Assembly: GCF_016765695.1 (NCBI RefSeq)
Contig: NZ_JAETGO010000098.1
Location: forward strand, 62,001 to 126,000
From: Sporosalibacterium faouarense
GTDB lineage: Bacteria; Bacillota; Clostridia; Tissierellales; VENL01
DNA length: 64,000 bases
Direction: 5' to 3'
Shown: positions 36,042 through 44,251 of the stretch, one piece after another
Position numbering within the stretch: position 1 is the stretch's first letter
How the letters are laid out: each line of letters begins with the position of its first letter
The notes under the pieces: generated by a model
Databases searched by the model: none
Told to the model about the DNA's origin: nothing
Seen by the model: only the letters and a program-made list of their open reading frames with translations
Made by a program: the position numbers and the translations under genes

Positions 36042-36689
36042 CTACACATTTTGAAAATTTCTAAAGAATTTCATTGATACTAGCATACACAATTGATAAA
36101 ATACAATGCTAACTACAAAAAGGACTATACTGTTAAAGATATTAATTTCAGTTATCATGCTCATAAATGGTATATCAAAATTAAACTTTTCATTAATGAT
36201 ATTCATCAAACCAGGACTAAAAAACACTATAAAGAATACAACCCTTGAGATATTAATTGCTATTCCCGAACCAAACTTATATAAAAGTATATAAAATATA
36301 CCTATAAATAATAGAGTTGTACTGACACTATTTATAATCGTAGTAACCATATCAGTGCTCAATCCAGTTGACATAGATTTTATTTTTATTATTATAAATG
36401 TATATAATCCACCCAATAATATTAATATAAAAGATGCTGTGAATTTGCCTATTACAATTTTATACTGTTTAAGTGGTAAGGTTCTCATTAAAGAATATCC
36501 TTTGTTTTTATCTTCATTATGTTCATTAGTCATTACGACCATAAAAGCTATCATTAAGACAAATCTTCCCACCATTAAATTTTCTTCAGTCCCAGAGGTT
36601 AAAGCTACTATAAATAATGATCCAAAAATTAGTGACAATAATATCATCTTTTTACTTTGACTGAATTCCTTAAAAATAATATATAACAC
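36042..36689 (-). CDS. ABC-2 type permease, copy 1
   Basis: A 215-aa, six-helix permease paralogous to the following gene. MLYIIFKEFSQSKKMILLSL and NEHNEDKNKGYSLMRTLPLKQYKIV mark the family. Its start overlaps the ATPase stop by one base, showing coupling. It should pair with the 212-aa permease. Confidence 0.85.
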   Translation of the reverse strand: MLYIIFKEFSQSKKMILLSLIFGSLFIVALTSGTEENLMVGRFVLMIAFMVVMTNEHNEDKNKGYSLMRTLPLKQYKIVIGKFTASFILILLGGLYTFIIIKIKSMSTGLSTDMVTTIINSVSTTLLFIGIFYILLYKFGSGIAINISRVVFFIVFFSPGLMNIINEKFNFDIPFMSMITEINIFNSIVLFVVSIVFYQLCMLVSMKFFRNFQNV

Positions 36690-37567
36690 TATTCTTCCTC
36701 CCTCACTAATGAAATTAATATTTCATCTAGAGTAGCATTACTTATTTTTATTCCATCATTGATATTCTTTAAGCTAAATATATTCTTAATCTTGGAATAG
36801 TTTTTAGTAATACCTGTTATGCCAAAATAATTTTCCTCTATTCCTATCATTAATCTTTTGATTTCTTGATCAACCAAATTTTTCTTTAAGCTAATCTTTT
36901 TCCAATTTGTTAAAATATTCTCTTTCTCTTGAGACAATACAATTTTGCCATTAATTATATATGTTACATAATCAGCAATTTTTTCAATATCTTCTGTAAT
37001 ATGAGATGAGAATAAAACTGATTTATTTTCATCCTGTATAACTTCTAGCAGAATATCTAAAATTTCTTTTCTTATAACTGGATCTAATCCTGATGTTGGT
37101 TCATCCAATATTAGTAATTCTGGATGTCTAGCAAGGGCTAAAGCTATACCTAATTTTACTTTCATACCCTTAGATAGTTCTTTTATTTTCTTAGTTTTAC
37201 TAACTTTAAATTTACTTAATAAGCTATTGAAATATTCTTTATCCCATTTTTTATAGTACTGAGATATAAATTTCTCAGTCCATGCTACTGACATATCTTC
37301 GTAAAAAATCTGTTCTTCCCCTACATACCCAATTCTGTTTTTAATTTCTTCCTCATTATTTTTATAATTAAGGCCAAATATTTCAACTTCTCCTCCATTA
37401 GATTTCAGGAGATTCATAATTAATTTTATAGTTGTGGATTTCCCAGCACCATTTGGCCCTATTAGTCCCATAATATATCCCCTTGGTAATTCAAAGGATA
37501 CATCTTTTAAAGTAAACTCACTATATTTTTTTCTCAAATTATTGACTTTTAATATACTGTTACTCAT
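36689..37567 (-). CDS. ABC transporter ATP-binding protein (YtrB-like)
   Basis: A 292-aa ATPase. Walker A GLIGPNGAGKSTTIK, Q-loop region YVGEEQIFYED, signature LSKGMKVKLGIALALARHP, Walker B LLILDEPTSGLDP. A C-terminal ~80-aa extension follows the H-loop (LFSSHITEDIEKIADY). Four-base overlap with the GntR gene and one-base overlap with the permease gene mean a tightly coupled four-gene operon. Confidence 0.95.
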   Translation of the reverse strand: MSNSILKVNNLRKKYSEFTLKDVSFELPRGYIMGLIGPNGAGKSTTIKLIMNLLKSNGGEVEIFGLNYKNNEEEIKNRIGYVGEEQIFYEDMSVAWTEKFISQYYKKWDKEYFNSLLSKFKVSKTKKIKELSKGMKVKLGIALALARHPELLILDEPTSGLDPVIRKEILDILLEVIQDENKSVLFSSHITEDIEKIADYVTYIINGKIVLSQEKENILTNWKKISLKKNLVDQEIKRLMIGIEENYFGITGITKNYSKIKNIFSLKNINDGIKISNATLDEILISLVREEE

Positions 37568-37938
37568 CTTTCACCCTCCATCTCTTTTAACAGTTTTATG
37601 ATATCTTTGATATCAATATCAAATTTACTAGCATCCTCTAAAAGACTCTCTAATCTCCCTTTTATTTCTCCCATTTTTTCTCTCCTTAAATCATCTTTCC
37701 TAATATCATTGACAAATGAACCTAATCCTCTTCTAGTGATAATATACCCTTCATTTTCAAGCTCACTATAGGCTCGTTTTATGGTTATAACACTAATCTT
37801 CAATTCATTAGCCATACCTCTAATAGAAGGTAAAGCGTCTCCTTCTTTTAATTCCCCTGTTATTATTGCATTTTTCATTTGGTCCTTAACCTGCTTATAT
37901 AAAGGGTCTGGATTATTATTTGAAATACTTATAAACAT
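37564..37938 (-). CDS. GntR family (YtrA subfamily) transcriptional regulator
   Basis: A 124-aa regulator. The winged helix-turn-helix covers residues ~10-75: DPLYKQVKDQMKNAIITGEL, LPSIRGMANELKISVITIKRAY and GLGSFV are classical. The ~45-aa C-terminal tail is the short dimerisation region of the YtrA group, with no ligand domain. First gene of the ABC operon; an inverted repeat overlapping its own -10 suggests autorepression relieved by an envelope signal. Confidence 0.93.
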   Translation of the reverse strand: MFISISNNNPDPLYKQVKDQMKNAIITGELKEGDALPSIRGMANELKISVITIKRAYSELENEGYIITRRGLGSFVNDIRKDDLRREKMGEIKGRLESLLEDASKFDIDIKDIIKLLKEMEGER

Positions 37939-37952
37939 TATTTTCTCCCTTC

Positions 37953-37977
37953 ACTGTACATATAGTATATATACAGT
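37953..37977. promoter_or_regulatory. Inverted-repeat operator of the GntR/ABC operon
   Basis: ACTGTA-N13-TACAGT, with near-complete symmetry across the spacer, overlapping the -10 element on one side and the transcription start on the other. Confidence 0.6.
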
Positions 37978-38003
37978 ATACAAATTATACACACACCTGT
38001 CAA
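37975..38003 (-). promoter_or_regulatory. Sigma-A promoter of the GntR/ABC operon
   Basis: Minus strand TTGACA, 17-bp spacer, TATACT, 37 bp before the GntR ATG. It is back-to-back with the arsR promoter. Confidence 0.8.
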
Positions 38004-38106: not shown

Positions 38107-38430
38107 ATGAATGATTTGTTTTTTAAGCTAACTGCATCCTATTTAAAAGCCTTATCCCATCCTACTAGATTAAAAATTATTAACATACTCAAAGAAAAAG
38201 AGCTTTGTGTTTGTGTTATTTTGGAAAAATTAGATTTAGAACAATCAAATGTTTCTCAACATTTAAGAGTTCTAAAAGAACAGAACATAGTTGAAAGTCG
38301 TAGAGATGGTTCAAAAATTATGTATAAGGTAAAAGATAGAAATGTTTTTTTCATCCTTAATAAAATCAATGATAGTCTTTTAAAGCAGTTATCGGAAACT
38401 CAAGACCAACTCAAGAAAGGTGGTCTATAA
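38107..38430 (+). CDS. ArsR family metalloregulator with CxC sensor motif
   Basis: A 107-aa ArsR/SmtB winged-helix repressor. The recognition helix is in LDLEQSNVSQHLRVLKEQNI, and the wing is SRRDGSKIMYKV. The segment KELCVCVILEKL holds Cys-x-Cys at the place used for As(III)/Sb(III) binding in ArsR, so it probably senses a thiophilic metalloid or a soft metal. The ATG at 38107 follows AAGGTGG; a TTG three codons earlier lies too close. It is followed after 3 bp by the permease gene. Confidence 0.92.
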   Translation: MNDLFFKLTASYLKALSHPTRLKIINILKEKELCVCVILEKLDLEQSNVSQHLRVLKEQNIVESRRDGSKIMYKVKDRNVFFILNKINDSLLKQLSETQDQLKKGGL

Positions 38431-38433
38431 TAA

Positions 38434-39486
38434 ATGGAGAATATTTCAAAATTTTTTAGTATCTTTAAGATTCTATTTTTACCATTTACATGGGTAGATA
38501 AAGGTTTAGTCTATTTAGCCAACATCATATCTCCTCAAATAGTTGATTTTACTAACTGGTTATTAAGTCAAACTGGAAAGAATTTTAGGGTAGGAGACCG
38601 ATTTCTCGGTTCAGTAAACTTCTTTATCTATGATAGCTTTAAAATAATAATTCTGTTAAGCTTTATGATTTTCATTATATCCTTTGTAAGAAGCTATTTT
38701 CCGCCTGAAAGAGTTAAGAAAATGCTTAGTAAGTTCAATGGTATATGGGCAAATATTATTGCTTCTATACTTGGTGTACTATCTCCATTCTGAAGCTGTA
38801 GTACAGTTCCTATTTTTATAGGATTTGTGGAATCGGGTATTCCACTAGGAGTAACATTTACTTTCTTAGTAACCTCACCAATTGTAAATGAAATTGCTTT
38901 GGGATTTTTATTTATTACCTTCGGCCCTAAGATTGCTATTGTTTATACTTTAGCTGGAATAATAATTGGTGTTATTTCAGGTATCATTATTGAAAAACTT
39001 CATTTAGAACATCTAGTAGAAGAATATGTATATCAAATTCATTCTGCAGAAGTTGAAATTGAAAAATTGAATTTCAAATCAAGAATAAAGTTCTCTTTAA
39101 ATGCAGTATGGGATATAGTTAAGAGAGTTTGGGTATATGTAATAATAGGTATTGCTATCGGAGCAGCTATCCATGGATATGCACCATCAGATTATCTTGT
39201 TAGATATGCAGGTCCTAATAATCCATTTGCTGTTTTTGTTGCAGTTGTCTTAGGTATTCCACTATATTCTAACGCAGTAGGTACAATACCTATTGTAGAA
39301 GCATTAATTGGTAAAGGGGTAGGAGTAGGAACAGCCTTGGCATTTATGATGTCTGTAGTTGCATTATCTCTCCCAGAAATGATTTTATTAAAAAAGGTTA
39401 TTAAACCTAAGCTAATTGCTATTTTTGTTGCTATAACCGGAATTGCCATTATTCTAGTTGGTTATTTATTTAATATTATTCTTTAA
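38434..39486 (+). CDS. COG0701 / ArsP-like permease, putative selenoprotein (in-frame TGA at 38791-38793)
   Basis: 350 aa if TGA is read through; Sec would be residue 120. The reading frame is uninterrupted on both sides of the TGA, and both halves match one family: SFVRSYFPPERVKKMLSKFNG before it and FIGFVESGIPLGVTFTFL after it. Family members read TPFCSCS-VPLFIGFV at this site; here it is SPF-TGA-SCSTVP, so TGA stands exactly for the first Cys of the conserved CSC. About eight helices. ArsP-type relatives export methylated As(III). Two stem-loops follow the TGA (CTGT/ACAG and TCCTAT/ATAGGA), but a canonical SECIS is not obvious. The alternative is a nonsense mutation. Confidence 0.8.
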
Positions 39487-39614: not shown

Positions 39615-39854
39615 ATGAATATCAAAATATTAGGAACTGGATGTAAAAAATGTAATCGTTTATATGAATTATGTAAAGAGTTAGTTGACGAAATGAGCAT
39701 AGAGGCTAGTGTTGAAAAGATAGAAGACATTAAAGAAATTGTAGGCTACGGAGTTATGGGTACACCAGGTTTAGTTATAAATGAAAAAGTATTAGTAGCT
39801 GGTAAACTTCCTTCTAGAAAAGAAGTTAAAAAGCATATAGAAAATAATTTATAA
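39615..39854 (+). CDS. Thioredoxin-like small redox protein (MTH895/TM0996 type)
   Basis: A 79-aa minimal thioredoxin fold. NIKILGTGCKKCNRL carries the redox CxxC, and YGVMGTPGLVINEKVLVAG contains the cis-Pro (TP). Such proteins often lie next to COG0701 permeases and ArsR regulators and probably reduce or deliver the thiol-bound substrate. AAGGAG site; 128 bp after the permease. It is a paralogue of the next gene, in which CxxC is replaced by Cys-TGA. Confidence 0.9.
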   Translation: MNIKILGTGCKKCNRLYELCKELVDEMSIEASVEKIEDIKEIVGYGVMGTPGLVINEKVLVAGKLPSRKEVKKHIENNL

Positions 39855-39948: not shown

Positions 39949-40021
39949 CTTATGATTTCTATTCTATCTATATAAATTTTATTTATCAAGTACATGAAAA
40001 ATATTTTATGGAGGTAAAGGT

Positions 40022-40273
40022 ATGGATATAAAAATTCTGGAGCAAATTTGTTGAGGCGGAAGCAAATTAGCGCCCATCGTGAATGAGGCATTAATACGTT
40101 TAGGTTATGATTATGACTATGAAATTATAGTTTCTCTAAAAGATATAATAGAGTACGGTGTATCAAAAACTCCTGCTCTAGTTGTAAACGGAAAAGTGGT
40201 TTTTGAAGGCAAAGTGCCTTCTATTATAGAGATGCCAGATATACTTGAAGAAGCTTTTAATAATTTAAAATAA
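40022..40273 (+). CDS. Thioredoxin-like redox protein, putative selenoprotein with Cys-Sec motif (TGA at 40052-40054)
   Basis: 83 aa if TGA encodes Sec at residue 11. The start MDIKILEQIC aligns with MNIKILGTGC of the upstream paralogue, and the remainder (GGSKLAPIVNEALIRLGY, then YGVSKTPALVVNGKVVFEGK) is a complete thioredoxin-like fold in the same frame. TGA directly follows the aligned redox Cys, giving C-U-G-G. AGGTAAAGGT precedes the ATG. The 20 bases after TGA are strikingly GC-rich for this genome and can fold (GGCG 40055-40058 with CGCC 40071-40074), as expected for a bacterial SECIS. The start of the fold would be lost without readthrough. Confidence 0.8.
40055..40074 (+). promoter_or_regulatory. 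Candidate bacterial SECIS stem-loop
   Basis: It starts directly after the TGA: outer GGCG/CGCC stem, 12-base interior with a possible inner GC/GC pair. GC content is far above the flanking sequence. Needs a fold with a bSECIS covariance model. Confidence 0.4.
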
Positions 40274-42196: not shown

Positions 42197-43151
42197 TTTC
42201 TAATTCTCCTTTATTATTAATAATACTAAAATATTTATCTTGTAGATTTATACTTGATACACTAAGTTCTACTCCTTCATTAATAAAGCCTTGGGTTATA
42301 TTAAAAATATCATTAAAATCCTTTTTTGATGCAATTAAGTAGTTATAGTCTTTTTCATCAAAAATCTCATAACCTTCTTCCTTCAGAATTTTTGTAAGTA
42401 ATCTAGAAGAATGCTTTAATATTATCTTTATCAAATCGTTAGACTCTTTGCATAGGGTGCTAGGACTATCAATAATTAATATTTCCCCGTTAAACATTAT
42501 CCCTATCCTATCAATAACCTTTTCAAACTCTATAAGGTCATGGGTAATAAGAAGTATTGTAGAATTACATTCTTTTCTGCACCTCATTATTTCTTTTATA
42601 AAAACCTCTCTTTTTTCCACGTCTAAATTGTTAGTTGGCTCATCAAAAACCAAAATAGGACTATATCCAATAAAGGTCATACATAGATTAACTAGTTGTC
42701 TTTCTCCACCAGATAATGATGAAACTAAACTATCCTTTAAATATTTTATTTGGAATAAATCAATAAGGCGATCTACTTCTTCTCTGCATTTATTTTTTTG
42801 CATTTTCTTAAGCTTCCCTACATAGTAAATTGCTTCCTTTACCTTTAATCCCCTTAATAATCCATTTACATTTTGGGGCTGATATGATACATAGTTGCCT
42901 ATAAACTTACTATTTTTTGAGCCCTTAAGACTTTCATCTCCTTCAATAAATATTGTCCCACTATCTGGTTTTTCCAGTCCCATCATCTGCCTTATTAATG
43001 TAGTTTTCCCTGAACCATTAGGCCCAGCTAAGCAATATATTTCTCCTTTAAAAATCTCTAAGTTTATATTTTTATTTACAATCTTATCGGCATATGATTT
43101 AACTATATTATTAACACTGATATATACCTTTTTATTTTCCACTTTAATCAT
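42189..43151 (-). CDS. ABC transporter ATP-binding protein of the RiPP operon
   Basis: A 320-aa ATPase. Walker A CLAGPNGSGKTTLIRQ, signature SLSGGERQLVNLCMTF, Walker B ILVFDEPTNNLD, H-loop LLITHDLIEFEK. A ~100-aa C-terminal extension follows. The start is uncertain: the ATG at 43151 follows GAAAGAGAG closely, and a TTG seven codons earlier overlaps the previous gene. Coupled by overlap to the permease. Confidence 0.88.
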   Translation of the reverse strand: MIKVENKKVYISVNNIVKSYADKIVNKNINLEIFKGEIYCLAGPNGSGKTTLIRQMMGLEKPDSGTIFIEGDESLKGSKNSKFIGNYVSYQPQNVNGLLRGLKVKEAIYYVGKLKKMQKNKCREEVDRLIDLFQIKYLKDSLVSSLSGGERQLVNLCMTFIGYSPILVFDEPTNNLDVEKREVFIKEIMRCRKECNSTILLITHDLIEFEKVIDRIGIMFNGEILIIDSPSTLCKESNDLIKIILKHSSRLLTKILKEEGYEIFDEKDYNYLIASKKDFNDIFNITQGFINEGVELSVSSINLQDKYFSIINNKGELENA

Positions 43152-43158
43152 CTCTCTT

Positions 43159-44172
43159 TCACAACAATTCAATTATACCTAAAGCAGGAGTATATTTAAT
43201 ATCTTTGAGGTTACAGATTGATTTCATAGGTATAAGCTTTTTATATCTAGTATCTTTTAATACGTGTTCCTTTAAGAAATTACTTCCAATCCCGCATAGG
43301 ATAATTTGCGGCTCTCCATAGAAGTTTTCTTTTATTACTCTAGTTATCCCCTTTAATACTTTACTTTTCATTTCCTCACTTATGTATTGACAAATACTGT
43401 CTAGAGTCTCCCTGCTAATAATATTCAAATCACCACACACTAGTCTAGCTACATTGAAATATGCTCTTTTTATTAGCATTCTCTCAGTTAAAAGATCATT
43501 GTCTAAGGCATATTCTTCTTTATTGATGTGTCCCAAAATATAGTTTATATCTCCTATTCTAGTTGTTGTCTCTCCTACCAGATTTACTTGATGTCCATTC
43601 ATTAAAATGCTATTAGATATTGTCTGAACCAGGGTTCTGCGCATCCCTATATAAAGCAATTCTTCTTTTATCATTCTTTCATGAATGCTGTAATTATTAT
43701 TTTTTATGTTTATATTTATAGGCACTATATCCGTTGATGAACTACCACAATCTATTATTAAAGAATCTTCTTTTACTTTTCTTTTTATAAAATCCCTAGT
43801 TATACACCAATTATAGCAACCTTGAATATCCACAGTTCTAAATTCCTTTATAGGTTTAAAGTTTCCCTCTTTTGAATAATAGTAAATATTATCTTCATTT
43901 AACGTTGTAGCTTCAATAACTATACTTGCTATTCTATCTGCTCCTTCTGATAAAGACTCATATAATAGAGTAGCAGTAGTAGTGAAATATAATTTTTCTG
44001 TATCCTCACTTAGTCTATATATGGATTCTTCTAATTGAATTTCAAATTGATCAATAGTCTTTGCATAAATATTTATAAGCCCTTGACTTAATATTTCCTT
44101 ACTTCCATTAAATACATTGGCTATAGCATATTTCAAATTAGCTCCCCCTATATCCAAGGATAAAATTCTCAA
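43159..44172 (-). CDS. ASKHA-fold protein of the hydantoinase / MfnF (H4MPT-linked C1 transfer) family
   Basis: A 337-aa protein. The N-terminal phosphate-binding strand is LSLDIGGANLKYA; the second motif is IIDCGSSSTDIVPI; the third is IILCGIGSNFLKEHVL. This pattern matches the archaeal-type 'H4MPT-linked C1 transfer pathway' family, of which MfnF condenses amine and furan phosphate in methanofuran synthesis. In a RiPP operon the family is unexpected; it might be a kinase or ligase-like tailoring enzyme. I prefer the TTG at 44172 with AAGGGG 8 bp upstream to the GTG at 44181. Confidence 0.75.
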   Translation of the reverse strand: MRILSLDIGGANLKYAIANVFNGSKEILSQGLINIYAKTIDQFEIQLEESIYRLSEDTEKLYFTTTATLLYESLSEGADRIASIVIEATTLNEDNIYYYSKEGNFKPIKEFRTVDIQGCYNWCITRDFIKRKVKEDSLIIDCGSSSTDIVPININIKNNNYSIHERMIKEELLYIGMRRTLVQTISNSILMNGHQVNLVGETTTRIGDINYILGHINKEEYALDNDLLTERMLIKRAYFNVARLVCGDLNIISRETLDSICQYISEEMKSKVLKGITRVIKENFYGEPQIILCGIGSNFLKEHVLKDTRYKKLIPMKSICNLKDIKYTPALGIIELL

Positions 44173-44251
44173 TATTATCACCCCTTAAAATACTATTGAA
44201 TCCATAAGCTTTATTTTTCATCTCTGTCCATTATTGCTATTTAATAAAATA

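Follow-up and report, generated by a model that had tools for sequence, protein, structure and literature searches.

A putative Sec-containing thioredoxin-fold protein encoded beside an ArsP-type permease in Sporosalibacterium faouarense resembles the arsenite chaperone ArsD

How should a small gene be read when its eleventh codon is TGA, and what would its product do if that codon encodes selenocysteine (Sec)? Both questions arise at positions 40022..40273 (plus strand) of the 64,000-nucleotide stretch of Sporosalibacterium faouarense DNA analysed here (hereafter, the window). With the in-frame TGA at 40052..40054 (+) read through as Sec, the gene encodes a protein of 83 residues (MDIKILEQIC-U-GGSKLAPIV...) that ends at a TAA stop, and its ATG is preceded, seven bases 5′, by the ribosome-binding site GGAGG (40010..40014, +). 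The product matches Thioredoxin_3 (PF13192) over its full length with 60.2 bits, against a gathering cut-off of 24.8, and scores 57.1 bits with TIGR00412, below the curated cut-off of 62. AlphaFold2 models it confidently as a thioredoxin-type fold (pLDDT 93, Sec being modelled as Cys), and the nearest solved structure found with Foldseek is that of MtH895 (1ilo). An earlier note, made from the sequence alone, had proposed that reading through the TGA gives a complete thioredoxin-like protein, paralogous to the CKKC protein encoded just upstream; the frame, the ribosome-binding site and the profile match bear out the former part, and the alignment of the two paralogues the latter. In this alignment, C10 falls on the first Cys of CKKC, U11 on the Lys that follows it, and a Gly on the second Cys, so that C-U-G-G stands in place of the CxxC redox site of TIGR00412, with Sec right after the aligned first Cys and the second Cys lost, as had been claimed. 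C10 is the sole Cys of the protein, and P51, the Pro of the cis-Pro loop, is retained.

Comparison with homologues indicates that the TGA at 40052 is almost certainly a Sec codon. The same codon is TGA in 17 genes from 15 genomes, all forms of the family included, and all 15 genomes possess Sec machinery. Six other genomes of the order have TGA at the identical codon in proteins that are 46–59% identical to ours over the full length, on both sides of the TGA (the six include Thermohalobacter berrensis, Caloranaerobacter azorensis and Anaeromonas frigoriresistens), and so does the CUGG gene of a genome from another order of the class (G262). The same TGA is found in eight CUGG genes, with 22 invariant columns among seven aligned CUGG proteins. 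When genome contigs were searched, a single-protein query returned no match, and an alignment query five loci. The S. faouarense genome carries adjacent selD (itself with Sec), selA and selB genes and a tRNA-Sec of 74.5 bits; tRNA-Sec scores 68–78 bits in 12/12 carrier genomes tested, and selA is present in the other three of the 15 carriers. Since Sec is also in use in the majority of the order's non-carriers, the machinery alone says little; the joint loss of TGA and machinery is what is informative. Such a case is provided by G369, the only genome with a Cys form (CCKGG, with a TGC codon at the Sec site), in which we found no selA match and no tRNA-Sec over the cut-off. The earlier note had looked to homologues with Cys, and not Trp, at the TGA position and to Sec machinery in the genome as signs of a selenoprotein, and both are present.

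The sequence that follows the TGA points the same way. A predicted SECIS-like hairpin (40066..40095, +; core 40072-40089, loop 40077-40081), supported by folding, synonymous recoding, a slide test and codon use, would help the TGA to be read as Sec. Its consensus, GCC-CAUC-GUU-GAUG-a-GGC, spans 20–38 nt, counted from the first base of the TGA, in 8/8 CUGG genes, and each of these hairpins is more stable than synonymous recodings drawn with local codon use (p 0 to 0.017). In place, 93.5% of the base-pair cells are formed in the CUGG hairpins, as against 20–60% when the partner strand is slid. Covariation is slight, because the stem hardly varies, and amounts to one double, compensated change (C-G to U-A, in G262). 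Two codons that are rare in the AT-rich genomes of the carriers recur in the stem: ATC (7.9% of Ile codons) in 8/8 CUGG genes and CCC (7.3% of Pro codons) in 7/8, counts that are not independent draws, since the genomes are related. The CxxC paralogues have no such hairpin (p 0.39–0.75 versus recodings), and it is absent from the Cys form of G369; in the CUSTS, CUGF and GUGY forms folding is present, mostly without significance against recoding. Rfam at gathering thresholds gave no match in the window. The suggestion that the GC-rich codons after the TGA fold into a SECIS-like hairpin within the coding region thus stands up to the folding and recoding tests.

These observations also bear on the possibility that no Sec is made here, the TGA being either a true stop, in a decayed gene or ahead of a start at the GTG at 40079, or a Trp codon. 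The standard code, which yields a 10-aa peptide, agrees with such a reading, and yet it is very improbable: ten conserved codons and a ribosome-binding site precede the TGA, the same TGA recurs in 17 genes, the Sec-less genome has Cys and never Trp, and the Sec machinery of the own genome is complete. The GTG, which the earlier note had mentioned as an alternative start, turned out to be codon 20, situated inside the apical loop of the conserved hairpin. Conserved coding, the Cys form, Sec machinery and the hairpin thus led us to reject all three variants, namely UGA read as Trp, a pseudogene and initiation at the internal GTG.

The gene does not appear to be the only one of its kind at the locus. 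Seventeen frames in the window have one internal TGA, and we judged only two convincing, namely that of 40022-40273, which had been seen separately, and that of an ArsP_1-type permease gene at 38434..39486 (+); the standard code cuts both short at the TGA. By sequence, the permease gene, which matches PF03773 with 248.7 bits against a cut-off of 32.3, is the second selenoprotein gene of the operon, its TGA (38791..38793, +) replacing the first Cys of PFCSC to give PF-U-SCSTVP. This TGA is kept in six genomes including the own, the permeases of the five others being 79–84% identical, and Cys occupies the position in 56 other homologous sequences. Sec and Cys interchange even next to a CUGG gene, as the permease of G262 has the Cys form PFCSCSTVP. 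A stem-loop follows the permease TGA (38808..38825, +) in 6/6 TGA permeases, with a mean of -6.7 kcal/mol versus -2.1 in the Cys permeases, and shows one coordinated synonymous change (U-A to G-C). In the search for a canonical SECIS, we found that this conserved stem has a loop without G, for which reason we regard it only as a possible SECIS part; a further hairpin downstream was seen by eye only. An exception is G002, where the TGA permease and the CKKC gene occur without the CUGG gene and no tRNA-Sec exceeds the cut-off; its assembly is 85% complete and consists of 260 contigs. The SO_0444-type Cu/Zn exporter, which carries Sec in a UxC motif (PMC13188914), and SaoE are related permeases; unlike these, the permease described here belongs to ArsP_1 and falls far below both curated cut-offs, with 136 of 325 bits for SaoE and 97 of 300 for SO_0444.

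Together with two further genes, the two selenoprotein genes form an apparent four-gene operon on the plus strand, in the order arsR, ArsP-type permease, CKKC protein and, last, CUGG protein. The first gene (38107..38430, +) encodes a metalloregulator of the ArsR/SmtB family (NF033788, 95.8 bits against a cut-off of 55; PF01022), the ELCVC box of which we take to fit an inducer of the As(III) type, and the third (39615..39854, +) the CKKC thioredoxin-like protein, a probable redox partner (TIGR00412, 102.7 bits against 62). Regulators 48–74% identical to that of the window precede the permease in five other operons. A CUGG-family gene adjoins ArsR in seven genomes, and in six of those seven also an ArsP-type permease; in G011, G010, G026 and the GUGY genomes, the Sec-type gene adjoins neither.

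Proteins of the TIGR00412/MTH895-ArsE family (redox-active disulfide protein 2; PF13192) have been reported in ars operons (PMC2963123). The Sec-type proteins share with them fold, length and sequence, as well as the company of ArsR and ArsP-type permeases, and differ in that CxxC is replaced by C-U-G-G or x-U-G-x. Nearly all tested members fall below the TIGR00412 cut-off, whereas the relative from G262 passes it with 66.1 bits. In a tree, a single branch (support 100/99) separates 16 members from 46 CxxC relatives, the members having been written with C for U and the Cys form included; long branches and a short alignment limit finer conclusions. The motif itself varies among the members. A C-U-S-T-S paralogue with a two-residue insert occurs in four genomes, as a third thioredoxin-like gene after the CUGG gene (L112:5435-5677; L113:5756-5998, minus strand) or, in G010 and G026, alone and without a permease. 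Other genomes have the forms C-U-G-F, G-U-G-Y, F-U-G-Y and S-U-G-G, the latter three being found at L117:5884-6129 (-), L158 and L160. All TGA members retain the Sec, and the preceding Cys is replaced by Gly, Phe or Ser in three lineages, the GUGY, FUGY and SUGG proteins having no Cys left at all; a two-ligand site is therefore not universal. The vicinal Cys-Sec pair had been called unusual for this fold. Most members do have the pair, yet these relatives manage without the Cys, and a vicinal pair as such is not foreign to the thioredoxin fold, because ArsD, a thioredoxin-fold arsenite chaperone, has Cys-Cys at what appears to be the same place. Among the CxxC relatives, those at L048-L051 and L093 (around 1501) contain an extra Cys directly after the first (GSGCCNC), that is, a Cys at the Sec position plus the normal second Cys.

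In ArsD, Cys12-Cys13 is the only universally conserved pair and, together with Cys18, passes As(III) to ArsA (PMC12607644). Sequence comparisons suggest that the Sec-type family resembles ArsD, and that its CxxC paralogues do not. The ArsD model PF06953 matches 11/12 Sec-type proteins, all weakly (best E 4e-5), and 0/12 CxxC proteins, which match thioredoxin models instead. The window protein itself stays below the ArsD cut-offs (12.6 versus 27 bits for PF06953 and 13.4 versus 90 for NF033727), and the best relative reaches 25.4 of the same 90 bits. When the Sec-type profile, with U written as C, was compared to the ArsD proteins of Clostridia, C-U fell on Cys12-Cys13 with a probability of 97%. 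This match of the motif is suggestive and not independent, because masking the Sec column leaves only the C-terminal half aligned (score 50 versus 36 for the CxxC profile, which likewise aligns to ArsD in that half only, and more weakly). By profile comparison as a whole, ArsD is more distant from the Sec-type family than are the CxxC proteins of the redox type. Weak matches of a sequence profile include the ArsD structures 3mwh (E 0.01) and 3kgk (E 0.95); they are not among the VIA-align structural matches listed, which excludes nothing. The two families share a thioredoxin-type fold and a similar C-terminal half, and the vicinal pair may occupy a corresponding site, the likeness being closest between the CUSTS form and ArsD CCSTG. 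The Sec-type proteins differ from ArsD by Sec in place of Cys13, by the lack of the C-terminal Cys pairs and of the third ligand (Cys18 is not present in the window protein) and by a length shorter by ~20 residues. The proposed partner differs as well, being the ArsP-type permease here and ArsA in the case of ArsD. No ArsD match was found in the own genome.

The neighbourhood of ArsR and permease, combined with predicted selenolates both at the putative ArsD-like site and in the permease, makes a carrier to the permease the most likely function. We propose, with a probability of about one half, that the CUGG protein uses Sec to chaperone a thiophilic metal(loid) ion in the manner of ArsD, capturing it for the Sec-permease; trivalent arsenic or an organoarsenical is the probable cargo. 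Sec, mostly paired with the preceding Cys, would lie in the loop after the first strand, the place of ArsD Cys12-Cys13, where it could bind a thiophilic ion, with As(III) and trivalent organoarsenicals as the likeliest candidates. The ion would then be passed to the permease, with PF-U-SC providing a second selenolate, and exported. Maintaining the selenols in their reduced state would fall to the CKKC neighbour, and the ion itself would induce the operon through the ArsR-type regulator. ArsP is known to export trivalent organoarsenicals (PMC12607644). As a more tentative extension, the ion might be handed from selenolate to selenolate between a Sec metallochaperone and a Sec ArsP-type permease, in a selenium relay whose carrier descends from redox thioredoxin-like proteins and has converged on ArsD. 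If this were true, a single operon would encode a carrier and an exporter that are both selenium-dependent.

The main rival to such a carrier is a redox role, with Sec as the residue that attacks the substrate of a reductase (thiol-disulfide, peroxide or arsenical) and either the adjacent Cys or the CKKC protein resolving the intermediate, by analogy with the GCUG tail of mammalian thioredoxin reductase. The fold, in which the cis-Pro loop retains its Pro, and the CKKC partner encoded next door would suit an enzyme of this kind, and most selenoproteins with a thioredoxin fold are predicted redox enzymes (PMC13188914). However, no member has retained the resolving Cys of CxxC, and the GUGY, FUGY and SUGG proteins, devoid of any Cys, have no internal partner; the Cys-less forms and the universal loss of the resolving Cys speak against a redox enzyme. 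Moreover, it is the ArsD model, and not the general thioredoxin ones, that the Sec-type proteins match, whereas the reverse holds for the CxxC set. We consider a redox role somewhat less probable than that of an ArsD-like chaperone.

The protein might also handle another thiophilic species (mercury or organomercury, copper, or selenium itself), which it would sequester without being a carrier to the permease. Some members do stand alone without a permease, Cys-Sec pairs recur in SaoL, SaoC, HgcA and MbdU, which are listed metal- or organometal-related families, and the permease also scores, under cut-off, with the SaoE and SO_0444 Cu/Zn exporters. Nevertheless, ArsP_1 is its clear best family, and the likeness to ArsD and the constant presence nearby of an ArsR that carries a CVC box argue further against this explanation, which we consider unlikely. 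SaoT (NF040730, UxxC) was rejected as the identity of the protein, as there was no match to NF040730.

As regards selenoproteins described so far, the Brachyspira Sec.1/Sec.2 subfamily shares with the CUGG protein the Pfam domain, the Sec and clusters of three paralogues with one Cys form. Its Sec (CxU, UxC) resides in an N-terminal extension before the domain and not in the active-site loop, whereas in the window protein Sec is residue 11, inside the domain. In an inventory of prokaryotic selenoproteins from 2026, which comprises 119 families, CxU and UxC are the only motifs given for PF13192, and the Sec SO_0444 exporter is included but no ArsP_1 permease (PMC13188914). We found the CxU/UxC PF13192 selenoproteins of that inventory to be the Brachyspira proteins with Sec in the N-terminal extension. 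None of the models in the June 2026 release of NCBIfam is specific to the CUGG protein or the Sec permease, and a text search of the literature for Sec in combination with ArsP or a CUGG family found none, with Haft and Gwadz (2023) and Haft and Tolstoy (2025) as works that may mention them. To our knowledge, several families have been predicted to use Sec for handling metals, with hardly any tests of the idea. The locus adds to these an ArsP_1 permease with Sec and a thioredoxin-type protein which apparently turned into an ArsD-like carrier, and suggests that cells may deal with toxic metals or metalloids by a selenium-based system that is as yet unstudied. Two predicted selenoproteins are available from a single short operon, along with a natural Cys version of each (in G369 and G262) and natural forms without the neighbouring Cys, and the contributions of selenium and of the Cys-Sec pair are therefore directly measurable.

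Several further features were observed in the surroundings of these genes. A pair of genes for a GntR-like regulator and an ABC ATPase lies near the CUGG gene both in the window (36689-37992, minus strand) and in G011 (L108:8018-9300), where the rest of the operon is missing beside the pair and the CUGG gene. On the other side of the gene in the window, a frame at 43144-44181 (-) gives an MfnF-like (TIGR03123), H4MPT-linked match under the cut-off (152 of 244 bits), which is unexpected here. The GUGY genes stand directly 5′ of a PP-loop gene (SGGIDSAVV). Finally, G262 has a peroxiredoxin-like frame (L114:4877-5389, minus strand) near its CUGG operon, which contains TPVUSTE and represents another likely selenoprotein.
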